DNA of 64,000 nucleotides from Clostridiales bacterium (lineage in GTDB: Bacteria > Bacillota > Clostridia > Mahellales > Mahellaceae): positions 1 to 64,000 of the forward strand of contig JASGMM010000001.1 in the NCBI GenBank assembly GCA_030156435.1. Direction: 5' to 3'. The notes under the pieces are model-generated. The model was given only the letters and a program-made list of their open reading frames with translations. It searched no databases and had not been told where the DNA came from. The translations under genes and the position numbers were made by a program. Shown here one piece after another: positions 1,400-45,896 of the stretch (position 1 is its first letter; each line of letters opens with the position of its first letter).

Positions 1400-1547
1400 A
1401 AATATCACTCCAGTCACATCAATATATGCTCAATTGTTCATATGTTAATTATATTATATACCTTTCTGCAGCGAAGTCAATATCAGGTTTTATATTAATA
1501 TTATATCAACCAAGCTATTTCCGCCAAATATTAGTAATAATTTAAAA

Positions 1548-1587
1548 TTAAAGCAGGCGTGTATGATCATATACGCCTGCTTTAATT
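1548..1587 (-). terminator. Rho-independent terminator downstream of the OYE-family gene
   Basis: ATTAAAGCAGGCGTGTATGATCATATACGCCTGCTTTAAT is a near-perfect inverted repeat just 3' of the 1591..3513 stop. Confidence 0.75.
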
Positions 1588-1590
1588 ATC

Positions 1591-3513
1591 TTATACTGCT
1601 AATCCCGCTCTGTAACCAGCTTCAACAGCCTCCAAAGCCTTGCATACTTTGACCGCATCGCCTATAGCTATAACCTGAGGGACCTTTCCTTCAAGCTGCT
1701 CAATCAATGTATTCACAGATCTGGCTCCTACGGCCATTACTATTGTATCCGCTGGACCTATTTCGGTTTCCGCCCCGTCTATCTCAACTATGACGCCGTC
1801 GTCTAGTATCTCTTTTACAGGTGCATTGACATATATCTTCACGCCATTTTGTTCTAAATCTTTCATCAAGAAGTACCTTACCGCAGCTTCTTCATCCTTT
1901 GCAATCTCCGGCAACATCTCAACTATCGTAACCTCTTTGCCGTGGTTGGACAAATGATCGGCCGTTTCGGATCCTACCATGCCACCGCCTATAACTATCA
2001 CCTTGTGCCCAACGTTAACCTTACCCAGCAGCACATCATTTGCATTGACCACATTGGATCTGTCTTTACCTGGTATATTGGGCACCAGCGGTTCTCCGCC
2101 CGTAGCCACTACCACAGCGTCAGGCGCTTCTTTTTCAACGATATCTACCGTCAGTTCGGTATTAAAGTGTATATTTACACCATATTTTTTTAACTGGTTA
2201 TATTGCCAAACAATAAACATATCCACTTCGCCTTTATTTGGCGGTATAGCTCCTATAGCATATTGCCCTCCCAGTCGATCGCTTTTTTCGTACAGGTGAA
2301 CCTCATGGCCGCGCTGCGCTGCTACTATAGCAGCCTCCATTCCTGCCGGACCTCCTCCTGCCACAAATACCTTTTTCTTTTCTTCAGCCGGTTTTATAAC
2401 AAGCTCAGACTCCCTGCCCGTTACAGGATTGACCAAACAGCCACCCGGATTCCCCCTATTCAGGCTGCCTATACAGCCTTGCAGACACCCTATACAGTAA
2501 TTGATATCATCAAATTTTCCCGCAGCAGCTTTATTAGGAAGCTCTGGATCGGCGAGCGAGGCCCTGCCCATAGCCACGAAATCAGCTTTGCCTGAAGTAA
2601 TGACAGTTTCGGCCATTATAGGATCATTAATTCTACCGACAGTTATCACCGGTATAGAAACCACTTTCTTGACCTCTGCAGCAAAATCGGTGATCCAGCC
2701 ATGACGTACTGCCGCCGGCGGTACTATAGCTTGCATGCTGGCATATACACCTGCAGAAACATGGATAGCATTTACCCCGGCATGTTCGAGCAATACAGCT
2801 ATGGTCTTCGTGTCTTCTATAGTTCTGCCTCCAGGTACAAATTCATCGCCCGAAATCCTGAATATTATCGGAAAATCATTACCTGCCTTAGCCCTTATAT
2901 TGGATATGATCTCTAAAGGAAATCTCACTCTGTTTAAGAGACTACCACCGTATTCATCGGTTCGTTTATTAGAATAGGGAGACATAAATTGGGCTATGAG
3001 ATAGCCATGCGCCCCATGTATTTCTACGCCGTCAAAGCCCGCTTTTCTGGCTCTCAATGCACAATCACCGAATTCCTCGACAATTTTATGAATCTCGGCT
3101 ACGGTGAGTTCATGTGGTATCTCTTGGTTAGCCGGACATGGTATCGGCGATGGAGCCACTGGTTGCATGCCTATAACGAAATGATTTGTTTGCCTGCCGG
3201 CATGGTATATCTGCGCTACTATCTTACTGCCATACCTATGTACCCTTTCTGTCAATTCGGAATGTCCTTCTATCTGAGCGTCATCCCACAATCCCGGAAT
3301 ACCAGTAAAGCCTTTGCCCCTGGGATCAACAGCATAGTCTTCGGTGATTATGAGTCCCCAACCGCCTTTTGCTTTTGTTTCGTGATAAGCTATAAACTTC
3401 TCAGTAGCAGTGCCATCGCTATTACAAAAGTTCATTACCATAGCTGGCACAACTAATCTGTTAGCCACTTCCATTTTGCCAATATGCATAGATGAGAAAA
3501 CGTTTTTCAACAT
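1591..3513 (-). CDS. NADH:flavin oxidoreductase / 2,4-dienoyl-CoA reductase-like (OYE barrel + FeS + FAD/NAD domain)
   Basis: 640 aa; N-terminal OYE-like TIM barrel, CIGCLQGC cysteine motif, VAGGGPAGMEAA dinucleotide-binding motif. Confidence 0.9.
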   Translation of the reverse strand: MLKNVFSSMHIGKMEVANRLVVPAMVMNFCNSDGTATEKFIAYHETKAKGGWGLIITEDYAVDPRGKGFTGIPGLWDDAQIEGHSELTERVHRYGSKIVAQIYHAGRQTNHFVIGMQPVAPSPIPCPANQEIPHELTVAEIHKIVEEFGDCALRARKAGFDGVEIHGAHGYLIAQFMSPYSNKRTDEYGGSLLNRVRFPLEIISNIRAKAGNDFPIIFRISGDEFVPGGRTIEDTKTIAVLLEHAGVNAIHVSAGVYASMQAIVPPAAVRHGWITDFAAEVKKVVSIPVITVGRINDPIMAETVITSGKADFVAMGRASLADPELPNKAAAGKFDDINYCIGCLQGCIGSLNRGNPGGCLVNPVTGRESELVIKPAEEKKKVFVAGGGPAGMEAAIVAAQRGHEVHLYEKSDRLGGQYAIGAIPPNKGEVDMFIVWQYNQLKKYGVNIHFNTELTVDIVEKEAPDAVVVATGGEPLVPNIPGKDRSNVVNANDVLLGKVNVGHKVIVIGGGMVGSETADHLSNHGKEVTIVEMLPEIAKDEEAAVRYFLMKDLEQNGVKIYVNAPVKEILDDGVIVEIDGAETEIGPADTIVMAVGARSVNTLIEQLEGKVPQVIAIGDAVKVCKALEAVEAGYRAGLAV

Positions 3514-3631
3514 GCTATATATCTCCTGTTTCTTTCATATTTCTCGTCAAAAACAACGAGTGCACACCACAAGTACTACTATTCCCAGATGTATTGATAA
3601 TATTTTATCATAAACACCGCTGAAAAACAAC

Positions 3632-3667
3632 ACATCTCTCACCCATAAATATACAAGTGAGAGATGT
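3632..3667 (-). terminator. Rho-independent terminator downstream of the trpB-like gene
   Basis: ACATCTCTCAC...GTGAGAGATGT stem followed on the minus strand by GTTGTTTTT. Confidence 0.75.
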
Positions 3668-3730
3668 AGATGATTATTCAGCCTTAACACAAGCCTGCTG
3701 ACTGACTAGTCACTATAAACTACTATACTT

Positions 3731-5086
3731 TTATACCTCAGGCAATGCCTCCAATGCTCGTACCAATTCGTCCTCCGATAAAGACGAATCCTGCAACCGG
3801 CCAGACAGATACGCATCATAAGCGCCCATATCGAAGTAGCCGTGACCACTTAGGTTAAACAATATAGTTCTCGATTTTCCAGCTTCTCTTGCTGCCAGAG
3901 CTTCATCTATAGCCGCTTTTATGGCATGCGACGATTCAGGCGCCGGTATTATGCCCTCATTCTGGGCAAAGAGTTTGGCAGCATCAAATACCTCACGCTG
4001 ATCATAGGCTTTAGCCTCTATTAAGCCATCATGCATTAGTTGGCTTTCTAAAGGTGAGGCACCATGATAGCGCAATCCACCCGCATGTATACCCGGCGGC
4101 ATAAAATCATGCCCTACCGTATACATCATCATCATAGGGGTCAACTTAGCGACATCACCGTAATCATAGGCAAACCTGCCCTTGGTCAGGCTCGGGCAAG
4201 CCGTGGGCTCCACAGCCATTATACGGGTATTTTTACCCTCTTTTATCTTATCGTAAACAAAAGGCATGGCTATACCGCCGAAATTGCTGCCGCCACCCGA
4301 GCACGCTATTATCACATCAGGATAGTAGCCGGCCTTTTCCATTTGCTTTTTGGCTTCTAAGCCTATAACGGTTTGATGCAATACCACGTGATTGAGCACG
4401 CTGCCCAGAGCATAATTGGTGTCGCCATGGTTAATAGCATCCTCAACAGCCTCGCTTATAGCTACACCCAGGCTGCCCATAGAATTCGGGTTCTTAGCCA
4501 ATACATCCCTGCCAGCCTGTGTCTTATCACTTGGACTCGGTATAACAGAAGCCCCAAATAGCTGCATCATTGAACGCCTGTATGGCTTCTGCTGGTAACT
4601 TACCTTTACCATATAAACCGTACATTCCATCCCGAAGAAATTACACGCCATAGCCAGAGCGCTGCCCCATTGACCCGCTCCGGTCTCAGTGGCCAATCTC
4701 TTTATACCAGCCTTTTTATTATAATAAGCCTGCGGTATGGCAGTATTGAGTTTATGACTGCCAGCCGGGCTAGCACCCTCGTATTTATAATATATTTTGG
4801 CCGGTGTATCCAAAGCCTTTTCTAATCGCTGAGCCCTATACAACGGTGACGGTCTCCACAATCGATACAACTCGCGCACTTCTTCAGGAATCTCTATCCA
4901 TCGCTCGACGCTCATCTCCTGCTTTAAAAGCTCTATAGGAAAGATCACCGAAAGGTCCTCTGGTCCAGCCGGTTGGCCGGTTTTTGGATTAAGCGGTGGT
5001 TTTATCGCATTTGGCAAGTCAGCCTGGATATTGTACCAATGTGTAGGTATCTCGTTTTCATCAAGCAATATCTTAATATCGCTCAT
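3731..5086 (-). CDS. TrpB2-type tryptophan synthase beta-like PLP enzyme
   Basis: 451 aa; [13 protein letters not shown]-lysine motif, [23 protein letters not shown]-terminal extension typical of TrpB2. Confidence 0.9.
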
Positions 5087-7908: not shown

Positions 7909-8180
7909 CCCTTCGTTATACTAAGCTATCTATATTTTACCCTCCATAGCCACTTTATGCAAGCTAATATCCATGGCAAATAGTCTCACTTTACATCTGT
8001 TGTCCTTATATTGCCATCCGCATCTATAAGGCCGCTAGATACTGCTCTTAAAATCAATCTAACTATATTTTCTTCACCCCAAAAGAGGTTGGCAAGGATT
8101 TTTTGTTTCAAAAATGCGGTAAATAACTGGTAAATTTGCCGTTTTCTATAAAATTAAGTTCATTTTTTATATAAATATCT

Positions 8181-9149
8181 TCAATATCTACGTTTCACCG
8201 ATTCATCCAATATAGCCAGCATAATACGCTTGTGCTCATTATCTGGCAGCAGCTTTATGTCTTCAACCGCTTTAGCCGCAAAGTTGTTCGCTATAGAACG
8301 CGCTTTTTCTATGCCGCCCGCTGCCTTGACCATAGCCTTAACCGCTTCCACATCAGAAGCATCATACCTGTCTTTGTTCAGAACATCTAGCAAAGGCAAA
8401 CGATACTTGGTATCTAATGCATATATCAGCGGCAAGGTATATACGCCTTCTTCAAAATCAGCACCCGCTGGTTTGCCTAACTCCTCCTGCTGGCCTTCAA
8501 AATCCAGTATATCATCTATGATTTGGAATACCATACCGAAGTCCATGCCAAAATTTTCTAAGGCGTTATATATCGGTTTGGAGCAACCTGCCCTTTTTGC
8601 ACCTATGACACAGCTTAGAGCAAACAGATCGGCGGTTTTATGTCTTATGCGCCTTAGGTAAGAGCGCACAGAGACTGCAGTATTGTAGCGGTGTTGGTAT
8701 TGATCGACTTCTCCCTCGCAAATCTGCTTTACAACTCTCGATACCTCATAAAGATCGTCAAACGACACTTCTTTGCTGAGCAACGAGAAGACCGTACTAA
8801 ATAAAAAGTCCCCGGTAAAAACGGCCACATCTTTACCCCAACGCGATTGTACGGTCGGTTCGCCGCGCCGTATAGGCGCATCATCTATTATATCGTCATG
8901 TACCAATGTGGCCATGTGAAGGATTTCTATCGCAGCGGCCAGATGGATTATCTCATCGCGTTTATAACCGCCGAATCGCGACGACAATATCACCATAAGG
9001 GGTCTTAAGCGTTTACCTCCAGATCCGGCCAATTGATTTATAACATCAGAAAGCAAGCGTTGATGCGTCTTAAGCGCTCGCTTTATATAATTATCGACAG
9101 AATCCATATCTTGCTTAATGTCATCGGTATAAAGTTCAAATGCAGGCAT
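8181..9149 (-). CDS. Polyprenyl diphosphate synthase (HepT/DmkB-like)
   Basis: 322 aa; GGKRLRP, LVHDDIIDD and QIIDDILDF prenyl-transferase motifs. Confidence 0.92.
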   Translation of the reverse strand: MPAFELYTDDIKQDMDSVDNYIKRALKTHQRLLSDVINQLAGSGGKRLRPLMVILSSRFGGYKRDEIIHLAAAIEILHMATLVHDDIIDDAPIRRGEPTVQSRWGKDVAVFTGDFLFSTVFSLLSKEVSFDDLYEVSRVVKQICEGEVDQYQHRYNTAVSVRSYLRRIRHKTADLFALSCVIGAKRAGCSKPIYNALENFGMDFGMVFQIIDDILDFEGQQEELGKPAGADFEEGVYTLPLIYALDTKYRLPLLDVLNKDRYDASDVEAVKAMVKAAGGIEKARSIANNFAAKAVEDIKLLPDNEHKRIMLAILDESVKRRY

Positions 9150-9159
9150 ACCTATCTCC

Positions 9160-9696
9160 TTATTTCATAAGCCATTTCATATGACTTTTTATATATCGTT
9201 CCAAAAACGAGGCCACCAATCCTATAAAATAACCGGCCATCACTCCGGTAATCAATAATGCTGGCAAATAAGCGAATATTCCAGCTGTATTGGCAACTAT
9301 ACTAAATACCAGCAGCTGACCTATATTATGAAACACGCCCCCAGCAATGCTTATACCAGCCAGGCTAAAATATTTATCAAACCTTTTATACATAATGCTC
9401 ATCACTACGGTACTGAGCAAGCCTCCAGCCAGGCTGTAGAAAAACACCACAAACCCGCCACCGAATAGCGAACCCAAAAACGTCCGCAGTATGACCACTA
9501 CAACAGCCTCTTTAAAGCCAAAAAACATTATAACTATTAAAGTAACGATATTGGCCAAGCCCAGCTTTGCTCCGGGAGGCATAATGCCCGAAAGCGGTAT
9601 AAAACTCTCAAATATGTGCAACATAAGGGCTATGGACACCATTACGCCCAACAATACGATCTTATTAGTTCTGCGCATAGAATCTCCACTCATCAA
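9160..9696 (-). CDS. Gx transporter / heptaprenyl diphosphate synthase component I family membrane protein (EetB-like)
   Basis: 178 aa multi-TM; PPGAKLGLANIVTLI signature. Stop/start overlap with the neighbouring gene. Confidence 0.8.
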   Translation of the reverse strand: MMSGDSMRRTNKIVLLGVMVSIALMLHIFESFIPLSGIMPPGAKLGLANIVTLIVIMFFGFKEAVVVVILRTFLGSLFGGGFVVFFYSLAGGLLSTVVMSIMYKRFDKYFSLAGISIAGGVFHNIGQLLVFSIVANTAGIFAYLPALLITGVMAGYFIGLVASFLERYIKSHMKWLMK

Positions 9697-10082
9697 TAAG
9701 CCACGCTATCTACACCGGAAGGCTGACCCATAATCTGTACGGTCAGTTTATGCGGGAGGCATACTATAATCTCCCCGGGCTTATCTATCCATCCCGTATT
9801 AACACATATCTTATCAATACAATCTGCATCTTTTACTCTGATACGACCAGCACTCACTTCTATCGTATTATACCCTCCACCAGCTATCTCTACAGTAAAA
9901 ATATCATCCTTCTGCATACGCGATGCCGGTATTTCTTTGTAGATATCATTACCTGTTTTTATGATCGCCCCTGTAGCCTTTGCGTCAGATATATTATCGC
10001 GGTAATACAATGTCCCATAGCCAACCATTACGGCAATGGCTATAACGAGCAGCAGTATTCTATCGCCCTTCTTCATATACAA
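9693..10082 (-). CDS. NusG domain II-containing membrane-anchored protein (EetA-like)
   Basis: 129 aa; one N-terminal TM helix then an extracytoplasmic domain with DCIDKICVNTGWI...GEIIVCLPHKL, typical of NusG-II proteins. Confidence 0.8.
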   Translation of the reverse strand: MYMKKGDRILLLVIAIAVMVGYGTLYYRDNISDAKATGAIIKTGNDIYKEIPASRMQKDDIFTVEIAGGGYNTIEVSAGRIRVKDADCIDKICVNTGWIDKPGEIIVCLPHKLTVQIMGQPSGVDSVAY

Positions 10083-11094
10083 AATCCTTATCGGTTATAT
10101 TGATCTTATCCTGAAGACCGCTGGACACGGTAATTCTTTTATCGTTTGTTATCATGATGCATTCGATATTAGGCAGATCCTCGACAATCTCCATACCTTT
10201 TTCAGGGCCTAATAAAAATACGGTAGTTGAAAGAGCGTCGGCATCTATGGATTTACCCGCTATAATGCTGACACTGGCCAACCCGTTATCCGCTGGATAG
10301 CCGGTAGACGGATCCAAAATATGATGGTATCGCTTGCCATCTTTTATAAAGTAGCGTTCGTACGTCCCTGACGTCACGACAGTCTTATCTGTCTCTTTGA
10401 CCACCGCTGCATAATTACCGGTAGGCTTAAAGGGGTTCTGTATGCCCACACGCCACGGTTTCCCATCCGGCCTGGTACCTACCACGACAACATTGCCCCC
10501 CAGGCTTATTATACCGTTTTTTACGCCATACTCCTTAAATATTCTTACTGCCTCATCGCCCGCATATCCCTTTGCTATAGCCCCGAGGTCTACGGACATG
10601 CCTCTTTCCGGCAATCCTATAGTACCCGCCGATGCGTCTATTCGGAGCTTTCTGTAATCTACAAGGGCTTTCGTGCTATCTATAGCCGCCTGAGACGGTA
10701 CCTCCTCTTTCTTGCCTATACCCCATAGACTTACCAGCGGCCCTATTGTTATATCAAAAGCCCCCTCTGATAATTGACTGTAATGTTGAGCGGCCTGCAC
10801 GACATACATGGTTTCATCGCTGACTTTTACAGGGTCTTGTCCCGCAGCTTTATTTATTTTATACACATCTCCCGTTTCAGAGCTTACGCTCATCAGTACA
10901 TCTATTTCTTTTATACGCTTCATAGCGGCATCTATAGCTTTTTCGCCGTTTGGCCCATAAGCAGTAAGCTCCATCAATGTATCCATAAGGAATTCGGTTT
11001 TTACTGTTTTTTCGGGCTCTTTGCTGCATGCCGATACAATGAGCAGCAGGTTTACAATGATCAACCATAATGATACAAGCCTTTTATATTTCAA
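10060..11094 (-). CDS. apbE: FAD:protein FMN transferase (ApbE family lipoprotein)
   Basis: LLLIVSACSKE lipobox; SVDLGAIAKGYAGD and HHILDPSTGYPA motifs. TTG at 11094 with upstream AAGGAG is a better start than the track start 11208. Confidence 0.9.
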   Translation of the reverse strand: MKYKRLVSLWLIIVNLLLIVSACSKEPEKTVKTEFLMDTLMELTAYGPNGEKAIDAAMKRIKEIDVLMSVSSETGDVYKINKAAGQDPVKVSDETMYVVQAAQHYSQLSEGAFDITIGPLVSLWGIGKKEEVPSQAAIDSTKALVDYRKLRIDASAGTIGLPERGMSVDLGAIAKGYAGDEAVRIFKEYGVKNGIISLGGNVVVVGTRPDGKPWRVGIQNPFKPTGNYAAVVKETDKTVVTSGTYERYFIKDGKRYHHILDPSTGYPADNGLASVSIIAGKSIDADALSTTVFLLGPEKGMEIVEDLPNIECIMITNDKRITVSSGLQDKINITDKDFVYEEGR

Positions 11095-11393
11095 GCTATT
11101 TGCTCCTTCAAAAATAATTAAACTAATGAATAGTATAGCATAGTATTGTACAAAAATCGACAATATCTCATTGGTTAACATTATATCAAATTTTCTTCGG
11201 TATTTCATCTGTTATATTGCGGAATACCATGATTCCATTGTTTGTTGTATTAAGCCATTATAATGCTATTCTTCAGCAAAATATTGCTTGAAAAAAATAT
11301 CGTATATGATACAATATTAAAAGCATAGTATAACTATTGGACTAATTATTTAACAATCATGGTTAATATTTTAACGCAAAGGGGAGATGTTAT

Positions 11394-13199
11394 TTGCCAC
11401 AAAAACGCATAGTGATACTTGGTGCCGGTTTTGGCGGCCTTACCGCAGCTAAAGCTATACATAAGTATCTCAAAAACGATCAAGATGTCGATATCTTAAT
11501 GGTAAACCAAAGCCCTTATCACGTATACCTCACAGAACTGCATGAAGTAGCCGGAAGCAGGGTATCGGAAGACGGCATACTGGTACCTATAGAACACGTA
11601 CTCGAGCATACCAAGGTACGTTTTGTACAGGATACCATTAAAACCGTTGATGTCGACAACCATAAACTGATATCGGATGAAGCGGAATATCCTTTCGATT
11701 ATCTTATCGTCGCCTGCGGAAGTCAACCTGCATATTTTGGCATCCCAGGTATGAAAGAAAATGCTTTAACGCTGTGGTCGCTAGATGATGCCAAAAAGAT
11801 ACATCAACATGTGCTGGATGTATTTGAACAGGCCTCTAAAGAAAAAGACCCTGCCAAGCGCAAGGAATTACTAACTTTCGTGGTAGGTGGCGGTGGATTT
11901 ACAGGTGTGGAGATGATGGGTGAGCTGCGTCAATGGACTGAAGTATTGTGTAAACGGTATGGTATACCAAAAGAAGAGCGTACCCTTATCATCGTCGAAG
12001 CATTGCCCAAGATACTGCCTAATCTGCCTGATTCATTGATCGAAAAGGCCAAAAACTACATGACTAAAAAGGGCATAAACATCATGACCGATTCGCCCAT
12101 AACAGAAGTAGAACCAGGCATCATACACTTGAAATCCGGAGAGACGATAAAAGCGGGCACATTCATATGGACCGGCGGCGTGGAAGCTAAAGATTTTGTA
12201 AAGAATATCGGACTTAGAACCGGTAAGCGCGGCAAGATAGAAGTAAATAAATATATGCAATCGGTAGACGATCCTAATATATATGTCATAGGCGATGATG
12301 CATACTTCGTTACCGAACACGGTGAGATGCCGGCTTTGGTGGAATCAGCCATGGAAAGCGCCGAGTGCGCGTGCTATAATATAGCCGCTGACATACACGG
12401 GCAGCCCAAGAAAGAATTTAAGCTGGAGCTGCGCGGCGTTATGGTATCCATAGGCAGCACCTACGCCGTAGCTCATGTCATGAATATGAAGATGTCGGGC
12501 GTATTTGCGCTCCTGATGAAGCATCTTGTAAACCTTAATTTCTTATTCGGGGTAGGCGGCATAGAATCGATAGTAAAATATATAAAATATCATTTCTTCC
12601 AAAGCAACAGAGGCCGTCCCATGATCATAAAACATATGACGGTGAAATCCCAAACTTTCTGGCTGTCCCTCATACGTTTCTTCCTCGGGTTATTGTGGAT
12701 AACCGAGGGCATAACCAAGGTACAGGACGGATGGCTTTCAGGTTACGCCAAGATAGGCGACGTCGGTTCCGGTGCCAGCTTGCAGCTCGTTGGTCCATCT
12801 ACACCAGGTTGGTACGCATGGATAGCTGAACATATAATATACCCTAATGCGATATTTTTCCAGTCGCTCATAGTGCTGACCGAATTGGCATTAGGCCTTA
12901 TGTTCATATTCGGTTTCCTAACGTTTAATAGCTCGTATGCTTTCTCCGGCTGGCCCGCCATGATATACGCTACTACCGCCCACGTAGCTGCATGGGTATA
13001 TACGCCGCCGTTTTCCCTCAAGCCTGGTGCATACCGCGATATATATCCCAGGGTTTCCGACGGCTCGCTGTATGCGGGATATAAAAGCAAGGTACCGCAA
13101 TCTTTGAATAGGTACTCTGTCACTGCATCCATGCACTGCTTTCGCCTCTTCTCATCAGCTATGCCACTTATCACGGCCCATGTTTGCGGATTCAAATAA
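11394..13199 (+). CDS. NDH-2-type NADH dehydrogenase with C-terminal DoxX-like membrane domain; C-terminus replaced by antisense GH94 sequence
   Basis: IVILGAGFGGLTAAKAI, GGGGFTGVEMMGEL, IYVIGDDAY; then a DoxX-like FWLSLIRFFLGLLWITEGITK segment. The last ~90 aa are the antisense of the GH94 ORF. Confidence 0.85.
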   Translation: MPQKRIVILGAGFGGLTAAKAIHKYLKNDQDVDILMVNQSPYHVYLTELHEVAGSRVSEDGILVPIEHVLEHTKVRFVQDTIKTVDVDNHKLISDEAEYPFDYLIVACGSQPAYFGIPGMKENALTLWSLDDAKKIHQHVLDVFEQASKEKDPAKRKELLTFVVGGGGFTGVEMMGELRQWTEVLCKRYGIPKEERTLIIVEALPKILPNLPDSLIEKAKNYMTKKGINIMTDSPITEVEPGIIHLKSGETIKAGTFIWTGGVEAKDFVKNIGLRTGKRGKIEVNKYMQSVDDPNIYVIGDDAYFVTEHGEMPALVESAMESAECACYNIAADIHGQPKKEFKLELRGVMVSIGSTYAVAHVMNMKMSGVFALLMKHLVNLNFLFGVGGIESIVKYIKYHFFQSNRGRPMIIKHMTVKSQTFWLSLIRFFLGLLWITEGITKVQDGWLSGYAKIGDVGSGASLQLVGPSTPGWYAWIAEHIIYPNAIFFQSLIVLTELALGLMFIFGFLTFNSSYAFSGWPAMIYATTAHVAAWVYTPPFSLKPGAYRDIYPRVSDGSLYAGYKSKVPQSLNRYSVTASMHCFRLFSSAMPLITAHVCGFK

Positions 13200-14890
13200 A
13201 TCCACCCTTCTTTGTTATCCTTTGAGCCTATTTTATCCCCCCAATCCGTAGTCGCTTGAATATACCACTGTCCATCCCAACCGAACTTATTTATATTTTC
13301 TTTTAATACAGACTGTACATCGACGCACTTATCGGCAAGAATATCATCGGCTTTCAAGCGCATGATAGGTATAAAATCGGTCAATATCGCATACAAGAAT
13401 TCGCCGACCCAGAAACTTTCGCCCTTCATATCAAGGCCTATGCCATTTAATCCGTCGTTCCAATCGTTCTCACCGATGAGCGGTATACCTCGCGGGCTGA
13501 AACGCATAAAGCTTCTTTCAATGGCCTTAACGCAATGGCAATATAATGTATCCTCCCCACCATCGTAATATGGCACAACCTCATCCAATATAGAGTAGTC
13601 ATCGGTTTCTTTGATATAATTTTCGGTTACATAAGGCAACCAAAGCAGATCGTCGGAGCAAGTAGTTATGCTACCCCAATTGCCCAGCGGCATCCACCAA
13701 TGCAGCACGGTACCATCGCTGTGCTGTTTGCCTGCATGTATAAGTATCCTCTCTTTGGTGTACTCAGGTGCGCTTTCCAGAAATATAAGAGAATCCTGCA
13801 GTTGGTCTCTATATCCATAACCCCCGCTGACCTGGTAATAACCAGCTCTTCCCCATATGCGGCAGGAAATAGCTTGATATTTAAGCCATGTATTTGTCAT
13901 AAAATCCATGGCCTTGTCAGGCGTTCGAATAATTTCATTCTGTAATAAAGGCTTCCAAAAATTTTTCACGCTCTCAAAAGCCGCCTCACATTCGCGCGTA
14001 TCATTATACCTTTTAGCAAGCACGATGGCTTGTTCATCATTATCAGCACAACCGAGGGTAAAACAAAGGCTTTCCTGCTCATATGGCTCAAGGTTTACAC
14101 TGACCTGAAGGGAGGCTATGGCATCGCCGAATCGCCCTACGTTGCGGGCTAATACTCTATCATGCACTGCTTTTGGATTCTTCTCATCGCAGTACATGCC
14201 AATGAACGACTCTTTGTCGCCATCATATGATACTGGCTTTAAACTCGACGTGTGAAACGCTACATAATCCCAACTTCGGTTGCTATGCTGTCCTTTAGCA
14301 TTAGCCAAATCGGACATATATTTTCTAACTGTGAACCCATTTATATCATTATTATATTGCGTATCTATAAACAGCTTATGAAATTCCCTATGTTCGTCAG
14401 GAGCATTGCCGAGAGTCCATTCCATATACGTGAACAGGTCAAGCGAACGCTTTCGATCGCTTTTATTGATAAGTTTTACTCTCCATATCTCCAGAGGTTG
14501 ACCGGGTACGGCAAAAAGCGTCCACCGGCTTTCTATCCCTTTATATTCCTGTATAAAGGTCGTATACCCTATGCCGTGGTGAACTTCGTAGTGCTCAGGT
14601 TCACGACACATCGGTTTATAACTGAGTGACCAGCATTGAGCCGTATCGTTATCCCTGATATAGATGTACTTGCCCCACCTATCCTCTATTATATCCTGAA
14701 AGCTCCTGGTGAGACGATTTTCGCCAGCGCTGAAACGCCACGAATAGCCTCCGCCTGTCTGAGAAACGATAAATGAATATTCACCGTTGCTTATAGCATT
14801 TACCCAAGGCCGTGGTGTGAACGGCGTCTTTATTATATATTCGCTGCCATCATCAGAAAAATATCCATACTCATTTTCAAATAATCCCAT
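12743..14890 (-). pseudogene. GH94 cellobiose/cellodextrin phosphorylase-like enzyme, 3'-truncated
   Basis: GENDWNDGLNGIG catalytic motif; YAPGLRENGGVYTHAATWAV. Homology ends near 12925, and the last ~60 codons are antisense of the NDH-2 gene. Confidence 0.8.
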
Positions 14891-14910
14891 AATCTTAACT
14901 CCTCTTAATT

Positions 14911-15903
14911 TTACGATTCACCGCATGATTTGCGAATTATAAGTTCGGCAGGGAGTATAATCTCCTCCTCATTTGGGAAATCTCCCTGCAAAGCTTGCAT
15001 CAAAAGGCGTACTGCCAGGCAACCCATTTCATACACCGGTTGCTTTATCGTCGTCAACGGCGGATCGACATATTGAGCCAGCCTTATATCGTCAAACCCT
15101 ATGATGGCTATATCTTTGCCTACCTTCAGGCCAGCTTCATCAAATGCTTCCATTGCCCCTATGGCCATCTCGTCATTAGCGGCGAAAATTCCCTGAGGCA
15201 AATCGTTCTGAAGTAACATCAGTTTAGCGGCTTGATAACCCCCTGCCTCTATGAAATTCCCCTTATAACATAATTTCGGGGCATACCCTATTCCATAAGC
15301 CTCTAAAGCCGCTTTATAGCCTTCAAAGCGCTTTATATTATCGTACGAATCATCGCTGCCGCTTATATATGCTATTCTCTTATATCCTAAAGATATAAGA
15401 TATTCTACAGCCTTATAAGCGCCATTGAAGTTATCCACCTCGATATTTATAATATATTTGCTGCTTAATCGGCGATCCAGCAAAGCTATGGGCATATCTT
15501 GCCGTGCAGCCGATTTTATCAGATTATCATCCAAATTATGCGCAAATATGATCATGGCATCGGTTCGTTTTTCTTTCAAGAATTTGGCCGCGGTGCTGTC
15601 AAATCCCCCTATAGCGCTAAGTGCCATAAGGTCATATCCGCTGGCCAGCGTCGCTTCCTGCACACCCCTTATAAGCTCTGAAAAGAAAGGACCTGCAAGG
15701 TCAGAAACTATAAGTCCTATCGTGTTGGTCTTACTCGATTTTAAATCCCTCGCATTACCGTTCGGACGATATTTAAGCTCTTCCGCCGCTTTAATGATCC
15801 TCTCTTTTGTCTCAGCACTTACCGGACCGCTGTTATTCAATGCATATGATGCCGTCGATATAGAAACGCCGGCCTTTTTGGCTACATCTTTTATAGTAAC
15901 TAT
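14911..15903 (-). CDS. LacI family transcriptional regulator
   Basis: VTIKDVAKKAGVSISTASYALNN HTH reads in frame upstream of the track start (TTG 15840). The only placement matching the SD GAGGAGGTGAT is ATA at 15903. LacI periplasmic-binding-like domain follows. Confidence 0.85.
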   Translation of the reverse strand: MVTIKDVAKKAGVSISTASYALNNSGPVSAETKERIIKAAEELKYRPNGNARDLKSSKTNTIGLIVSDLAGPFFSELIRGVQEATLASGYDLMALSAIGGFDSTAAKFLKEKRTDAMIIFAHNLDDNLIKSAARQDMPIALLDRRLSSKYIINIEVDNFNGAYKAVEYLISLGYKRIAYISGSDDSYDNIKRFEGYKAALEAYGIGYAPKLCYKGNFIEAGGYQAAKLMLLQNDLPQGIFAANDEMAIGAMEAFDEAGLKVGKDIAIIGFDDIRLAQYVDPPLTTIKQPVYEMGCLAVRLLMQALQGDFPNEEEIILPAELIIRKSCGES

Positions 15904-15927
15904 ATTATCACCTCCTCTAAAATTATA

Positions 15928-15954
15928 GGATACGGGGTTAGACCCCGTATCCTA
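15928..15954 (-). terminator. Hairpin between the SBP and lacI genes (attenuator/terminator-like)
   Basis: AGGATACGGGG-TTAGA-CCCCGTATCCT, perfect 11-bp stem; only a weak T-rich tail (ATAATTTTAG) on the minus strand. Confidence 0.6.
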
Positions 15955-15959
15955 AGAAT

Positions 15960-17641
15960 TTACTGCGCTTGACTGTATCTGTCATAAGCCGCTTTATAGA
16001 TGCTTAAATACTCGTCCAATCCCATTTGCTTAAGCTGATTTACGTAGTTATTCCAACCCTCATCATCAAACGAATATTTGCCGTTTATAACCTGCTCTTG
16101 AATCTCATTCACATAGCCCTCTATATCTGCTTTCAACGCCACCAATCTATCATTCTCTTCAGTGGTAAATATAAATTGCGGCCATACTTCTTTTATAATA
16201 TACGGCTTGGACTTTTCAGCCGCTTCCATCGGTGGTTCAGTAGATTCAGAACCCTTAAAATATTTCTGCATTGTAATCCCCGGCCAGCCGGAAACCGAGG
16301 GCATATATTGCGACCTAGCCTGATCCTGATTTAAACCATTCGGGTTATTAGTTATAACATCGGTGAATACATATTCCCCATTGGCATCCACCGTGTATGT
16401 TTCCCCTTCTATACCCATATTGAATAGCTTGATACCTTCTTCGCTATACATATAATCGAGCCATCTTACCGTTGCCTCAGGATATTTATTTTTATCGGTA
16501 ATCACAGCCATAAACGGTGTTTCAGCAACCGGAGATAGCGAAGGTACTATCTTGTCGCCCTGCGGCCCTTCCAGCACACCTATACCTGTATAATCAGTAA
16601 CTGTTAGCAATGTTGGACTCCAACCAGCATAAGCACCTATTGTACCATTATTTGCTTTTGCTATGACTTTATCCCAACCAGAAGTAAATATCTCTTGATC
16701 CAATAATTTTTCTGAGTAAAGTTTGCGCATATATTCTACCATATCCCTATATTTCTCATCTGCAGGCCAAAATCTGAGCTGGTTGGTACTCTCATCCATA
16801 TCTACAAAATTAGCAGCATTTCCTCTGTTGCCTAAGCCCCACGCTCCTTTTATATTCTTTATGATACTGCCTAAATTTTGTCCTGTCAAAGGTATTTCAT
16901 CTGCCTGGCCATTACCATTCGGATCCTGCTCTTTAAATGCTTTCAGAGCGTTATATAATTCCTCAGTTGTAGCCGGCTCTTTTATCCCTCTTTTATCCCT
17001 ATTTTATCCATCCAACCCTTTCTTATCCACAAACGATCTCCTAATCTCATCGATAAGAAATCGGGGTCAATAAGTCGTGGGAAGGAATAAATACCACCAT
17101 CAGGAGCGGTTAAGCCTCTAGCTACATCTGGGTTCTTTTCATAAAAAGCTTTTATGTTGGGCGCATATTTATCGATATAGTCATTGAGTTTTATGAATAC
17201 CCCCTGCTGACTGCCATATGTTACTATGTCGGTAGCATCGATAAACATCCTGATAAATACATCAGGATAATCTTGACTGGCCAATGCCAGATTCTTTCTT
17301 TCGGTAGTGTTATCCCACGGCACCAATTCCCACTCTACGTGTATGCCGGTCATTTCCTCATATTTCTTTATGACAGGCATATCAGCGTTATTGGCCTGGC
17401 CAGGCGACTGGTTTGACATAACCTTGATGGTTATGGGCTCCTTTACAATAGGTAGACCCGTTTCATTTAAAGAATCCGGCACTGTCGTTTCCCCGTTGGA
17501 AGCCTGTTCATCAGATCCACCTTGTTCACCGCTCGGAGATGCACTATCCTCGGTAGTATCGCTATTTGAACAAGCCAACATAACAGATGCTATCATCAAA
17601 ATAGCAAGCACTAAAGACAAAAACCTAAAACCGCGCTTCAT
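15960..17641 (-). pseudogene. ABC transporter extracellular solute-binding lipoprotein, frameshifted
   Basis: Track ORFs 16982..17641 (lipobox MLACSNSD) and 15960..16889 are the N- and C-parts of one protein. They are joined in different frames at an 11-bp tandem duplication, 16978..16999. Confidence 0.9.
16978..16999 (+). repeat. Perfect 11-bp tandem duplication (TCTTTTATCCC x2) in the SBP gene
   Basis: TCTTTTATCCC TCTTTTATCCC; removing one copy restores KIGIKEPATTEELYNALKAFKEQD in frame. Confidence 0.95.
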
Positions 17642-17691
17642 AGAAATTCCTCCTTAAAAATATTTGTTTTATATTTGCTAAAGGGATACAT

Positions 17692-18585
17692 CTATCCCTT
17701 AATAGCCCCTATCATAACACCTTTAACAAAGTATCTTTGCAAAAACGGATATATAATCAGTACAGGTACACTAGCGACAACTATAGTAGCGTACTTTATA
17801 CCTTCAGCCAACACCTGCTGCTGAGCTATCGACTCACTTGCTGAATTCATGAGCTGCTGCATTTGATTCTGAACTAATATTTTCCTTAAGACCAGTTGCA
17901 ATGGATATTTAGCTTGGTCCCTCAAATAGATAAGTGCGTCAAAATAGGAATTCCAATGACCCACCCCGTAGAATAGTACCATAACAGCTATTATGGGCAT
18001 TGACAAAGGTAAAATTATGCTCCATAATATTCTCCAATTTGAGCATCCATCCAACATAGCTGATTCCTGAAGTTCAAACGGTATGCTGGACTGAAAGTAC
18101 GTCCTCATGATTATAACATTGTATATAGAAATAGCCCCTGGCAGTACCATAACCCAAAAATTATCTATCAATCCCAAATCCCTTATAATTAGGTAAGTCG
18201 GCACCAATCCACCACTAAAAAACATCGTAAAAGTAAACAATCCCATAAATATGTTCCCACCACGAAGATCCTTTCGCGATAACGGATACGCTGTAATAAT
18301 AGACAATATAACATTTACTGCCGTGCCCACCAACGTATAGAGTATGGTATTCCAGTAACCGGAGATAATCTCATTATCCGCAAAAACCTTCTTGTAAGCA
18401 TCAAGATTAATACCTTTGGGCAAAAGTATTATCTCACCGTTTAAAACCTTCATTGGATCACTAAAAGAAGCGCTGACAACATATATTAGAGGATATAATA
18501 CTATTACCGTTATTAATACTAATAAAAATCCATTTACTATATCAAAAGCCTTATCGCTCCTTGACTCTATAAGCCTATTATTCAT
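17692..18585 (-). CDS. Carbohydrate ABC transporter permease (LplC/YtcP-like)
   Basis: 297 aa; six-TM, ESAMLDGCSNWRILWSIILPLSMP EAA motif. Confidence 0.9.
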   Translation of the reverse strand: MNNRLIESRSDKAFDIVNGFLLVLITVIVLYPLIYVVSASFSDPMKVLNGEIILLPKGINLDAYKKVFADNEIISGYWNTILYTLVGTAVNVILSIITAYPLSRKDLRGGNIFMGLFTFTMFFSGGLVPTYLIIRDLGLIDNFWVMVLPGAISIYNVIIMRTYFQSSIPFELQESAMLDGCSNWRILWSIILPLSMPIIAVMVLFYGVGHWNSYFDALIYLRDQAKYPLQLVLRKILVQNQMQQLMNSASESIAQQQVLAEGIKYATIVVASVPVLIIYPFLQRYFVKGVMIGAIKG

Positions 18586-18599
18586 ACATCATCGCTCCT

Positions 18600-19541
18600 T
18601 TACCACAGGCTCACGTCATTGACGCGACGCGAAATAGTATTTACTATAATCAAAAGTATGAAATTTATCACAGAATTAAACAGACCTACGGCAGTAGAAA
18701 AACTGTACTGCGCTCCTAATATACCCATCCTGTATACATATGTCGATATAACATCGGACGCTGGCATATTCAGATTGTTTTGCAGCAAGAACACCTTTTC
18801 AAAGCCCACGTTCATTATGCTCCCGACATTTAGGATTAAAAGTATAACAACCGTAGGCATTATCCCAGGTAAATCTATATGCCAAATCCGTTTCATCCTG
18901 CTAGCCCCATCGACTATAGCAGCCTCGTGCAGCTCGGGATCAATGCCAGCTAATGCAGCCATGTATATAATCGAGTTCCATCCCATATGCTGCCATACGT
19001 CCGATAATACATATATCGTTTTGAACCATGCAGGCTCTATCATAAAGTATATAGGTTGTCCCCCTAAAGCTACAATCAGTTTATTGACTATGCCATTACT
19101 TGGCGAAAGAAATGAAATTATCATCCCTGCTACAACTACTGTAGAAAGGAAGTGCGGTGCATATGTTATAGTCTGCACAGTATTCTTTATAACGCCGTTT
19201 CTTAATTCGTTCATCATTATAGCTAATATTATAGGAATAGGAAATCCAACTGCTAAACTATATAAGCTTATACCCAACGTATTCGCCATAAGACGCCCAA
19301 AATTATAGCCGTTAAAAAATCGTTCAAAATGCTTAAATCCTACCCAAGGGCTACCCCATATGCCCTTAGTAGCTACGAAATCTTTAAATGCCAATTGCAC
19401 GCCATACATAGGCAGGTAATGGAATATAAGGAAATACAATATTGCCGGAATTAACATTATATAAAGATCATAATTCCTTATCGCATATCTCATAGTAGAG
19501 TTCTTGCCAATACCCCTATCCAACTTATTAGAGCTCCCCAT
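18600..19541 (-). CDS. Carbohydrate ABC transporter permease (LplB-like)
   Basis: 313 aa; HEAAIVDGASRMKRIWHIDLPGIMP EAA motif. Confidence 0.9.
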   Translation of the reverse strand: MGSSNKLDRGIGKNSTMRYAIRNYDLYIMLIPAILYFLIFHYLPMYGVQLAFKDFVATKGIWGSPWVGFKHFERFFNGYNFGRLMANTLGISLYSLAVGFPIPIILAIMMNELRNGVIKNTVQTITYAPHFLSTVVVAGMIISFLSPSNGIVNKLIVALGGQPIYFMIEPAWFKTIYVLSDVWQHMGWNSIIYMAALAGIDPELHEAAIVDGASRMKRIWHIDLPGIMPTVVILLILNVGSIMNVGFEKVFLLQNNLNMPASDVISTYVYRMGILGAQYSFSTAVGLFNSVINFILLIIVNTISRRVNDVSLW

Positions 19542-23638: not shown

Positions 23639-24522
23639 TTGTACGCCTCCTTTTTGCCGATGAAACGAATAAGCAGTATAAACACAAGCGATATGGCGAG
23701 CAGCAGTAAAGCGATAGACCACAAAGCGTCATTGGGCAATGTATTCATGGCCGTATTGCCCATTTCCATAGTTATAATACTAGTCATGGTATGAACCGGA
23801 TCCAGGAGAGAGGAAGGTATATTCATAGCGTTGCCTATGACCATCTGCACGGCCAAAGCTTCGCCCAGTCCCCTGGCCAGGCCTAGTATGATAGCCGTCA
23901 ATAAGCCCGGCATCGCAGCGGGAAGCAGCACGCGGCGTATGGTTTGCCACCGCGTTGCGCCAAGGGCCAGCGAAGCCTCGTTTAATTCTTCGGGGATGGC
24001 CCTTAAGGCATCGGCTGCCACGCTGGCTATAGTCGGAAACATCATAACAGCCAGCACAAGACCTCCAGCCAGCACACTGAAGCCCAAGCCTCCTATATTA
24101 TTGCGTATAAAAGGTACCAGCACGCTGAGGCCTATCCAGCCATACACTACCGACGGTATGCCCACAAAAAGCTCTATGACTGGCTGAAGCAGTTTTTGCC
24201 CCCATGCAGGCGCGATATTAACCATGAATATGGCCGATGATATGCTCACCGGCGCACTTATTAGAATGCCGAATATGGATACGACAAGCGATCCTATTAT
24301 AAATGTCAAAGCTCCCACCTGAGGCGGGTTAGCCTCCGTACGCCACTTGGTCGACGTCAAAAATTCGATTGGAGAAACGCCATCTTTTACAAAAATGGTT
24401 AACCCTTTAGAAGCAATAAATATGACTAACGAAAATGTAACTATGATTACCAATATAGCACAAAGGAAGGTTATAAAGCGGCCAAAAGCCTCATTGCGTT
24501 TTTTAGCTTTTAATGTATTCAT
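23635..24522 (-). CDS. pstC: Phosphate ABC transporter permease PstC
   Basis: PVIELFVGIPSVVYGWIGL; ASLALGATRWQTIRRVLLPAAMPG. Confidence 0.92.
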   Translation of the reverse strand: MNTLKAKKRNEAFGRFITFLCAILVIIVTFSLVIFIASKGLTIFVKDGVSPIEFLTSTKWRTEANPPQVGALTFIIGSLVVSIFGILISAPVSISSAIFMVNIAPAWGQKLLQPVIELFVGIPSVVYGWIGLSVLVPFIRNNIGGLGFSVLAGGLVLAVMMFPTIASVAADALRAIPEELNEASLALGATRWQTIRRVLLPAAMPGLLTAIILGLARGLGEALAVQMVIGNAMNIPSSLLDPVHTMTSIITMEMGNTAMNTLPNDALWSIALLLLAISLVFILLIRFIGKKEAYK

Positions 24523-24601
24523 CTTCACTCCTCCGTATATTTGCATACGGCATTATTATACCATTCGTATCTTAAAACATTGTTAATTCTGTGTTAAATT
24601 T

Positions 24602-26374
24602 TCAGTTCCATGCTGCTATTACTTCGGACGCTATTTTATACTCGGCCACGCTCTCACTGAGCATCTGTGCCATACTGGACAATCTCTGTACCGATTCGTC
24701 GAGTGCACGCATTATTTCATCATGCTGCCTGGTCGCTACAGCTATCTCCTTATAACTTGCGGATATGTCCGATGCAGTACCAGATATACGCGACATAGCT
24801 TCTACTATGGCCTCCACTCCGCTATTCACCTGATTTATTTCTTCTACCATAGCACCTATATGTTCATCGGTGTTATCTACATTACTCAGAATACTACCGA
24901 ATGACTTATCTAACCTTTGCATCAGATCATTCGCATCATCCATGAGATCCTTGCAGCTTCGCCCTATATCCACCGCCTTATCCACGTCATCTGACATCGA
25001 CGTCATTATCTTGCCTATATCCTCCGCAGATGACGACGAATGCTCAGCCAATTTTTTTATCTCAGATGCCACCACCGCAAAACCTTTGCCGGCTTCACCT
25101 GCTCTAGCTGCTTCTATAGAGGCATTGAGCGAGAGCAATTGCGTTTGCGATGCTATATTCTTTATTATTCCGACGGCTTTAGCGACCAACTCAGAGCGAT
25201 CATGTATGGTCATTATAAGCTGGAATGTATTCCTTATACCATCGGCCAACGATGCTATTCTACCTTCCATATCGTTAAGCCGCTCCTTACCGTGCTGCGC
25301 CGCCTCCAACATAGCTTTACTGGCTCTATCGGTTTCCTGTATTTTTTGCTCTATGACTTCTACGGATGCCGACATCTGTTGTGTAGCGGCCGCCGTCTCC
25401 TCTATCTCGGCTGCCTGCTCCTCAGAGCCAATAGCTATATCTTTTACGCCTTGAGATATGCTGCTCATACTCTTGGCGTTTATATCAGATGCTTCTATGA
25501 GTGTTTTACAGGTATACGACATGCTGACTGACGCCGTCTTTATATCGGTAATCAGGTTCTCCACATTATGTATCATTTTATTAAAACCATGGCTTAATTC
25601 GGCTATTTCAGGGCTTATCGATGTTTCGTCCGTTCGCACGGTGAAATCTCCATTTTCCGCCTGCTGCATGGCATCGGCTATACGCTTTATAGGCCTGGCA
25701 AGCACCATGCTGCCCGACCAGCCTATTATAGCCGATAAAACGAGGCTTATCAGAGCTATCCACAATATGTACTCTCCTATCTGGTTGACATATGTAAGAT
25801 AATCGGAGCTGCGAACACCAACTATATAAATCCAATCCTTACCCGGAATATGCCCGAAAGAGATCTTCATATCATATCCTCTGATATTTTCATTTATTAT
25901 GCCATTCTTTTGCCCTATAATACGATCCACCAATTGCTTATCATATGTATCCAACACATTATCCGTGCCATCTCCCATCCAATCTATGGTGTTGCCATTT
26001 AAGTCTATCAGATAGATGGAGGCATTTATGCCTTGGTTGTTGAAGCCGTTCCTCTCGGCTAATAATATCATTTTTAAGCGCGAGTCGAATATCTGCGTAT
26101 TCAAACCCGACATTATAGCGGTAACCTGTTGCACGACGCTGCGAGTGGAGTTGGAAAGCAGAGTGTCCATAAGTACTGTTATGTTTCGGCTACTGTAGTA
26201 ATATGACACGCCGCCCACCGCAGCTATAGATATAAGGGCTATAGCCATCAATAACCCCATTATTTTATATTGTATTTTTATGCGAGCATTTAATGCAGCG
26301 GCGCCTTTTATAAGTCTTGCCATTTTTATCGCCTTCCTTTTATTATGTATAGCGTTAAAAAAGCCGGCTTTCAC
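24602..26374 (-). CDS. Methyl-accepting chemotaxis protein (Cache-type sensor, HAMP, signalling domain)
   Basis: 590 aa; two TMs, HAMP ([24 protein letters not shown]), hairpin tip [37 protein letters not shown]. Confidence 0.95.
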
Positions 26375-33166: not shown

Positions 33167-34387
33167 CTATATTTTTGTTAATCTATGATATGAAACAAGG
33201 CCTAGGGTAAGCAAAAGAGGAAAAGCGATAGCCGCAAACAACCCTGCTCTCAAGCTGTTTCCCATATGGTCCGACACCATTCCGACAACGGTTGGCCCCG
33301 ATGAACAGCCGAGGTCACCTGCAAGGGCTAAAAGCGCAAACATCGCCGTACCGCCCTTTGGAAATTTTGCAGATGCGAGGCTGAATGTACCGGGCCAAAG
33401 GATACCTACAGACAACCCACATAGGCCACAACCGATGAAAGCTAAAGTAGGCCAAGGTGATAACGCTGCAAATAAATAACTAACCATACACAAGCAGCCG
33501 CAGGCCATCATAAACATTTGCAAATTAATTCTTTCGCTGAATTTGGAATAAACAACACGGGATATTCCCATAAGCGCTGCAAATAGACATGGACCTGCAA
33601 GATCACCGACAGTTTTGGATACCCTCAAACCCGATTCTGCAAAAGCCGAAGCCCATTGGCTCATTGCCTGTTCAGAGGCACCGGAACAAATCATTAACAG
33701 TATAAATAGCCAAAATAGATTTAAGGATAGTAGTTTCTTAATAGACATGCCTTCACCATTCTCCGTTAAAGTGGCAATGGGCACCTGCGAAAAATAGAAT
33801 GCATTTAGCAATGGCACGATTGCCCATGTAAAAGCGAGGGTTCTCCAATTTTCAATATCAAAAGTAATAAAAAACAATGTGGATCCGATCACCACAAAAA
33901 CGTATCCCCAGCAATAAAATGAATGCAACAGGCTCATAGCCGCAGATTTTTTATCGGTCGGACAAGCTTCCACAATCGGGCTCACCAGTACCTCAATCAA
34001 TCCGCCGCCAATGGCATAAATAAAGATAGCAAGGAGAAGCCCTATATATGGGTCAGAGAATATTTCGGGGAAAACACCAAGTCCCACCAGCCCAAACGCA
34101 GCGAAGATATGAGCCAGCACTATAGACGTCCTATAGCCTATCTTGTCCACAAATTTTGCCGATATCAAGTCGACGATCAACTGAATCCCGAAATTTATGG
34201 TTACAAGCAACGTTATTTTATTTAGAGGAATTTGGTATGTATTTTGAAAGGTCAAGAACAATAGTGGCGCAAAATTATTGACAATCGCCTGAGTGATATA
34301 TCCGATATAGCTTGCATAGAGCGTATGGCTATAGTTATCTTTTATACGCATAGTTCCTTTCTCCCACCGTTCCGTTATCAAAGGCAA
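33167..34387 (-). CDS. MFS transporter
   Basis: ~12 hydrophobic segments; SAKFVDKIGYRTSIVLAHIFAAFGLVGLG. Start may be ATG ~34351. Confidence 0.85.
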   Translation of the reverse strand: MPLITERWEKGTMRIKDNYSHTLYASYIGYITQAIVNNFAPLLFLTFQNTYQIPLNKITLLVTINFGIQLIVDLISAKFVDKIGYRTSIVLAHIFAAFGLVGLGVFPEIFSDPYIGLLLAIFIYAIGGGLIEVLVSPIVEACPTDKKSAAMSLLHSFYCWGYVFVVIGSTLFFITFDIENWRTLAFTWAIVPLLNAFYFSQVPIATLTENGEGMSIKKLLSLNLFWLFILLMICSGASEQAMSQWASAFAESGLRVSKTVGDLAGPCLFAALMGISRVVYSKFSERINLQMFMMACGCLCMVSYLFAALSPWPTLAFIGCGLCGLSVGILWPGTFSLASAKFPKGGTAMFALLALAGDLGCSSGPTVVGMVSDHMGNSLRAGLFAAIAFPLLLTLGLVSYHRLTKI

Positions 34388-34392
34388 TTATA

Positions 34393-36291
34393 TCAAAAAT
34401 GTGCCTTTAACACAACGCCGGCCATCGGCGGGACCTTTATCGTTAAATGGTAATCCTGGTTATGCCACCTGCCTTCCTCAGCATAAAGCGTTTGGCCCAT
34501 CACCTGTCCCGAACCGCCGAAACCGATGTCATCGGTATTGAGTATCTCATCATATGCACCCGGATACGGCACGCCTATCTTATAATCATAATATACTATC
34601 GGCGTAAAGTTGCATACTATCACCAACGTATCTGACGGATGGTCGGTTTTGCGCATATATACAAATATGCTCTGCTCGGTATTGTTCGGGTCTATCCATT
34701 CAAACCCTTCGGCATAATAATCGAGCTGCCACAGCGCTGGATTCTCCAAATAGAAATGATTCAGCGTTTTGAAAAAATCATGTATTTTTTTATGCATATC
34801 GAAACGCTCTATAAGGAACCATTCGAGCTGCTCATAAAAGCGCCATTCGATAAATTGCGCGAATTCACAACCCATGAAGATGGTCTTCTTGCCCGGATGG
34901 GTATACATATACAACATGTAGGCGCGAAGACCTGCGAATTTGTTCCAGTAATCGCCCCACATCTTATCTACCAGGGCCTTTTTGCCGTGCACCACCTCAT
35001 CGTGCGATATGGGCAATATAAAGTTCTCAGAATAATGATACATCATGGAAAATGTCATCAAGCTATGGTAATACTTGCGGTATATAGGATCCATGGTTAT
35101 ATACTTCAATGTATCATTCATCCAACCCATATTCCATTTAAAATTAAAGCCCAGGCCGCCTACATATACGGGTTTGCTGACCATGGGCCACGTCGTTGAC
35201 TCCTCGGCTATCATTATGAGATCTGGGTATTCTTTAAACAGCGCCTCGTTTAGCTGATGCAAGAACCCGATGGATTCGAGATTTTCCCGACCACCGTATA
35301 TATTCGGAACCCACTGCCCATCCTGTTTGCCATAGTCAAGGTAAAGCATATTGGCTACTGCATCCACTCTAAAGCCGTCTACATGGAATTCTTTAAGCCA
35401 ATAGAAGGCATTGGATATAAGGAAGCTTTTGACCTCGGGTCGCCCGAGGTCAAAATTAGCCGCTCCCCATCCCTCGGTCTCTGCCCTTCTCGGATCCTGA
35501 TATTCGTATAAAGGTGTACCATCGTAGCGATATAAGCCATGAGCATCCTTGCAGAAATGACCAGGCACCCAGTCTAGTATAACTCCTATGCCATTTTCAT
35601 GGCATGCATTTATAAAATATTTGAATTCATCTATCGTACCATATCGACTGGTCACGGCGTAATAGCCGGTTATAAGGTAACCCCATGATGCATCCAGCGG
35701 ATGCTCCATTATAGGCATAAGTTCTATATGCGTGTAACCCATATCTCTTGCATATTTAGGTAATAAATTAGCCAATTCGGCATATGTCAGAAATTCTCCA
35801 TTTTCTTTGCGCCGCCATGACCCCATATGCACTTCGTATATATTTAACGGGCTTTTGTATATATCTATTTGAGCCCTTTTGTTCAGCCATCCTTCATCGT
35901 TCCATGAAAAAGGCATCGGATTTGCCACTACCGACGCCGTATTCGGGCGTTTTTCGGCATAAAAGGCATAAGGATCGGCCTTAAGCAGCCTTTTCCCCTC
36001 GGGCGATATTATCTCATACTTATATATATCTCCCTCGCTTATACCAGATATAAATGCACTCCACAGGCCACCTTCCGATATGCGCTCTAGAACATATGGC
36101 TCGCCACCGTGCCAATCGTTAAAATCACCCGTCACGCTGACCGACCGGGCATTGGGAGCCCAGGTAGTGAATCGGACACCATTTTGTCCACCTTCTTGGC
36201 TTATATGGGCCCCCATGAACTCATAACATTCATAATGCTGTCCGGCATGAAAGCGCTTCATATCACCCTTTTTTACAATATTTCTTGCCAT
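34393..36291 (-). CDS. glgB: 1,4-alpha-glucan branching enzyme
   Basis: CBM48 plus GH13; MEHPLDASWGYLITGYYAVTSRYG, DGFRVDAVANMLYLDY, PISHDEVVHGKKALVDKM. Confidence 0.96.
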   Translation of the reverse strand: MARNIVKKGDMKRFHAGQHYECYEFMGAHISQEGGQNGVRFTTWAPNARSVSVTGDFNDWHGGEPYVLERISEGGLWSAFISGISEGDIYKYEIISPEGKRLLKADPYAFYAEKRPNTASVVANPMPFSWNDEGWLNKRAQIDIYKSPLNIYEVHMGSWRRKENGEFLTYAELANLLPKYARDMGYTHIELMPIMEHPLDASWGYLITGYYAVTSRYGTIDEFKYFINACHENGIGVILDWVPGHFCKDAHGLYRYDGTPLYEYQDPRRAETEGWGAANFDLGRPEVKSFLISNAFYWLKEFHVDGFRVDAVANMLYLDYGKQDGQWVPNIYGGRENLESIGFLHQLNEALFKEYPDLIMIAEESTTWPMVSKPVYVGGLGFNFKWNMGWMNDTLKYITMDPIYRKYYHSLMTFSMMYHYSENFILPISHDEVVHGKKALVDKMWGDYWNKFAGLRAYMLYMYTHPGKKTIFMGCEFAQFIEWRFYEQLEWFLIERFDMHKKIHDFFKTLNHFYLENPALWQLDYYAEGFEWIDPNNTEQSIFVYMRKTDHPSDTLVIVCNFTPIVYYDYKIGVPYPGAYDEILNTDDIGFGGSGQVMGQTLYAEEGRWHNQDYHLTIKVPPMAGVVLKAHF

Positions 36292-36293
36292 GC

Positions 36294-37415: not shown

Positions 37416-37429
37416 ACTCAGTCCCCTTT

Positions 37430-38584: not shown

Positions 38585-38588
38585 CCCT

Positions 38589-40364: not shown

Positions 40365-40376
40365 AAAGCCCCTTCT

Positions 40377-42815: not shown

Positions 42816-42839
42816 ATGATTACCTCACATCTATATCCA

Positions 42840-45564: not shown

Positions 45565-45677
45565 AGCTAATCTCCTCTCCTCTCATCTCGTCTATTATGC
45601 ATTTATTCTAACATTTTTTACGAACGAGCGCAACAATTCAAAACATATGTTCTTTGATTCGTAATATAGCAAATTCA

Positions 45678-45709
45678 GCGCGTGCAATGATATAAAGTCT
45701 GCGCTCGCT
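45678..45709 (+). repeat. 32-bp intergenic repeat, copy 1
   Basis: GCGCGTGCAATGATATAAAGTCTGCGCTCGCT; matches 47168..47199 at 29/32, first 20 bp identical. Confidence 0.85.
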
Positions 45710-45711
45710 AC

Positions 45712-45819: not shown

Positions 45820-45896
45820 CATGCCACGTAATGATTGCTTACTTACAACTCGTTTCAGTCACATATTACTAATCGCAAAACATATGTTTATATATA

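Follow-up and report, generated by a model that had tools for sequence, protein, structure and literature searches.

In the analyzed genome, the interior of a gene for an NDH-2/DoxX-like NADH dehydrogenase (ndh) was found to be joined to the interior of a convergent GH94 phosphorylase gene, very probably by a single chromosomal deletion of 3,540 bp. The break itself, located between positions 12927 and 12928 and not assigned to a strand, is certain. The analyzed stretch of DNA (the window) has a length of 64,000 nt and lies within a contig of 100,417 bp (C47). It belongs to a genome assembly of the genus Mahella (G000), which comprises 2.19 Mb in 104 contigs and is rated 99.56% complete. The nearest relatives in the comparison were two congeners, G001 and G002. 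The closest of them, G002, is Mahella australiensis, represented by a single contig of 3,135,972 bp, which is exactly the published genome size of M. australiensis 50-1 BON (PMC3156404). The G000 assembly is smaller than that of G002 by 0.94 Mb.

In the alignment of G000 with G002, window positions 8165 to 12927 matched without gaps at 99.8% identity, ending at position 2082547 of G002. The alignment was found to continue at window position 12928 (to 20213) from G002 position 2086088, leaving 3,540 bp (G002 2082548–2086087) absent from G000. Both sides of this gap are collinear with G002 (99.8% and 98.5% identity), the gap occurs in one genome only, and the sequence flush against the join is that of the native gene on each side. 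The missing 3,540 bp were also used as a query. No match was found in the rest of the G000 assembly, and the positive controls worked in G002 (100% match) and G001 (two main blocks at 88–89%).

The first-pass annotation had proposed that both genes lose their C-termini at one point, close to positions 12927 and 12922, due to one deletion of both 3′-ends. This was borne out by the alignment, as the proposed positions lie within about two codons of the exact break. The comparison with close relatives recommended there likewise supports a single deletion, both genes being of full length in G001 and G002. Since G001 also carries both genes at full length, the deletion is the derived state. Beyond these claims, the comparison revealed the size of 3,540 bp, the loss of three whole genes and the fact that the two genes were formerly not adjacent.

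The two open reading frames, 11394–13199 (+ strand, 601 aa) and 12743–14890 (− strand, 715 aa), overlap tail to tail by 457 bp, close to the earlier estimate of about 450 bp. The retained part of the NDH-2-like gene (11394–12927, + strand) was identified from the reading frame, Pfam and the match to G002. Its Pyr_redox_2 domain is complete (residues 5–321), so that the FAD/NADH oxidoreductase domain is present and intact; the DoxX match is weak and partial. In the full-length protein of G002, a DoxD domain was found at residues 423–575. The native sequence stops at F511 (position 12926) plus one base, which cuts the membrane extension within its second half, where the native protein has a predicted membrane segment. 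The following 90-aa tail (12928–13199, + strand) corresponds to the antisense strand of the GH94 gene (93% match in G002). None of its segments exceeds a hydrophobicity of 1.6, and hence no membrane segment is predicted in the tail. In common with type II NADH dehydrogenases carrying a DoxX/DoxD-like extension, which are found in Mahella and other families of its class, the fused protein has a complete pyridine nucleotide-disulphide oxidoreductase domain. In contrast to them, its membrane extension breaks off after residue 511, and the remaining 90 residues are unrelated. The NDH-2 part may still work with its foreign tail.

The retained part of the GH94 gene (12928–14890, − strand) encodes the N-terminal supersandwich domain and the catalytic domain up to Pfam profile position 366 of 420. 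The G002 protein (791 aa) covers the complete profile (1–420). Native sequence stops at L654 plus one base, followed by a 60-aa tail (12743–12927, − strand) that matches ndh of G002 and G001 in antisense at 94%. Past the break, both tails match nothing in the relatives except the partner gene, read in antisense; antisense-derived tails of about 90 and 60 aa had been predicted. An alignment to homologs, also recommended by the first-pass annotation, located the loss of similarity at residues 513–516 for most of the best NDH-2 homologs in other families and at residues 655–668 for most GH94 homologs.

For structural comparison, GH94 glycoside phosphorylases were used, namely cellobiose phosphorylases (e.g., PDB 8ho9, 3qde, 2cqs) and the phosphorylase part of cyclic β-1,2-glucan synthase (8rf9). 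The truncated protein has the supersandwich domain, most of the catalytic barrel and the NDWND motif, but differs from these enzymes in the absence of the C-terminal β domain and of the last part of the barrel with its Ser/Thr-Gly phosphate contacts. The phosphate contacts of the Cellvibrio gilvus cellobiose phosphorylase (CgCBP) include Thr731-Gly732 (PMC5501786), to which the lost residues S698-G699 were putatively assigned by motif. A complete GH94 catalytic domain with its phosphate site and C-terminal domain is therefore not found in the truncated form. Judging from its sequence, it is almost certainly inactive due to the loss of one side of the phosphate site and of the C-terminal β domain. 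Two further GH94 genes are still open in G000 (C13, C102), so that the use of cellobiose need not be lost. Relaxed selection on the GH94 gene before the deletion was considered and rejected: with G001 as outgroup, all three changes on the G000 branch are synonymous, giving no sign of earlier decay in these very small numbers. On the G002 branch, three of four changes are non-synonymous.

The comparison with G002 establishes where the deletion lies, how large it is and what it contained. In G002, ndh (600 aa) and an aldo/keto reductase gene on the + strand are followed on the − strand by genes for a PfkB kinase, a methyltransferase, the GH94 phosphorylase and a LacI-type regulator. In G000, the NDH-2/DoxX-like gene is shortened by its final 89 codons and the GH94 gene by its final 137, and the genes for the aldo/keto reductase, the PfkB sugar kinase and the methyltransferase are lost entirely. 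In G001, full-length ndh, reductase and GH94 genes were found without the PfkB kinase and methyltransferase genes, and the interval between the two gene sets is thus variable within the genus anyway.

The lost DNA also contains a perfect 16-bp hairpin six bases 3′ of the ndh stop codon and, between the reductase and kinase genes where the convergent gene sets meet, a hairpin-like stretch. Either of them may be a candidate terminator. The additional proposal that terminators were removed together with the 3′-ends is plausible in that two hairpins lie within the lost DNA. It gained no support from a simple intrinsic-terminator scan, which flagged neither hairpin in G002 and found no candidate in the fused overlap of G000.

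No base is common to both sides of the junction (microhomology 0 bp), and no matching pair of direct repeats was found at the two deletion ends, which rules out a RecA-type deletion between direct repeats. Three 7-base words are shared within 100 bp of the deletion ends, approximately as expected by chance. A deletion mediated by an IS element or transposon was ruled out as well, since no element is present at the ends and native gene sequence extends up to the join. Ku/LigD end joining was excluded because a profile search for Ku (PF02735) detected no gene in G000, G001 and G002, with a positive B. subtilis control. In the absence of end homology, a mobile element and a Ku gene, the deletion probably arose by Ku-independent illegitimate recombination, which could have taken the form of replication slippage over a distance or of a faulty end-joining event. 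Such a single event would remove the two 3′-ends, the three genes between them and the sequences separating the convergent gene sets, and the two transcripts would now run into each other. One clean loss with its ends within two genes and no element at the junction resembles other bacterial deletions by illegitimate recombination with short or no homology. The only difference is the tail-to-tail orientation, which results in two mutual antisense tails.

Identity to the undeleted G002 is 99.96% in the left flank and 99.8% in the right. This near-identity indicates that the event is recent or that the tract carrying it was recently acquired. The near-identity tract ranges from 8208 to about 19500 and is embedded in a contig that is otherwise mostly about 95% identical to G002; the deleted allele may therefore have been imported rather than made in the G000 lineage. 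Two SNPs in 4,720 bp left of the junction and 15 SNPs in 6,562 bp right of it were counted (Fisher P = 0.012, post hoc), a difference in density that is the main oddity of the locus and could hint at two sources of sequence. A search with the junction 36-mer, which says little, gave no match among the IMG/VR viral contigs.

Along C47 (1–77271), identity to M. australiensis is mosaic, with 0–2 SNPs per 500 bp at about 1500–4500, 8208–19500, 24500–25500, 34500–44000 and 62000–66000. The remaining tracts show about 5% divergence, a few of them 12–17%. This may be due either to recent homologous exchange between sibling lineages or to a mixed-strain assembly. Further differences from G002 were observed. 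At window positions 7983–8165, about 180 bp replace about 2.2 kb containing an ABC transporter pair (ATPase and ABC-2-like permease, by reading of the ORFs). About 1.4 kb with two small genes is lost at 34374–34387, and about 8.5 kb at C47 68322–68326, comprising, by reading, two sulfatase-like genes, a sugar ABC transporter, a ROK-type regulator and a hydrolase. An insert of about 225 bp at window positions 45652–45875 is flanked by the short direct repeat CAAAACATATGTT. Similar stretches of 150–180 bp are located at about 13507–13688 of G001 contig C36 and at about 82410–82591 of C47, and the insert is possibly a small repeated element.

The gene of the LacI-type regulator (14911–15840, − strand; Pfam LacI, Peripla_BP_3) is located just upstream of the GH94 gene. 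At higher coordinates lies a split gene for an ABC sugar-binding protein (15960–17641, − strand), with SBP_bac_1 identified in the N-terminal piece. This gene, a single frame of 560 codons in G002, is frameshifted by an 11-bp tandem duplication (CTCTTTTATCC) at about 16977. The same gene set also contains two intact ABC sugar permease genes (17692–19541, − strand; BPD_transp_1). The sugar-uptake operon of the GH94 gene thus appears to be decaying.

There is a small chance that a chimeric read, a scaffold join or a mixture of strains produced the join and that the organism itself has the undeleted region. An assembly collapse, as raised in the first-pass annotation, is unlikely. The window is part of one of 104 contigs, which alternates between about 99.9% and 95% identity to G002 as a mixed-strain assembly could, and the small difference in SNP density across the junction points in the same direction. 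A De Bruijn misjoin requires a common word of k−1 bases, and the junction has none. It also contains no run of N, the missing 3.5 kb is found nowhere else in an assembly of this completeness, and the near-identity tract is unbroken through the junction. A short ancestral form, into which the intervening genes were later inserted in G002 and G001, would fit the variable gene content between the operons, as seen from the absence of the PfkB and methyltransferase genes in G001. This scenario is extremely improbable, because an insertion would have to reconstitute the proper 3′-end of both genes simultaneously. Moreover, the gene ends in G002 match those of homologs in other families (NDH-2 open frames of 585–622 aa, GH94 profile complete to 420), and G001 has both gene ends, too.

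A further explanation is compatible with the deletion and competes only with the view of ndh as a decaying gene, namely that the fused ndh, with its new antisense-derived tail, is kept as a working enzyme and represents a nascent gene form. The complete FAD/NADH domain and the lack of a second full-length ndh copy among the G000 sequences are consistent with it. In addition, the open stretch in each antisense tail exceeds that of most simulated joins. When joins between the two genes were simulated 20,000 times, 0.6% of them gave two tails of at least the observed lengths, and 3% a combined length as great. These lengths are mildly unusual, but they were noticed after the fact, on account of the long ORFs, and no function was inferred from them. 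Retention as a working enzyme nevertheless seems quite unlikely, since the membrane segment predicted in the native protein has no counterpart in the tail and the deletion, with two SNPs in the left 4.7 kb, is too young for visible selection. That the chimeric NDH-2 with its 90-residue antisense-derived C-terminus is both made and working is very doubtful.

The deletion represents an ordinary recent loss mutation and a textbook case of pseudogenization, with no new system indicated. If the chimeric NDH-2 did work, the deletion would have given rise to a novel version of a respiratory-type enzyme and to a mutual antisense transcript pair. The locus provides a clear snapshot of gene loss soon after the event: the junction shows no homology, a relative with 99.8% identity still has the undeleted form, and a single sugar-uptake gene set carries two lesions. 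It also illustrates how antisense tails can be exchanged between convergent genes in one step.
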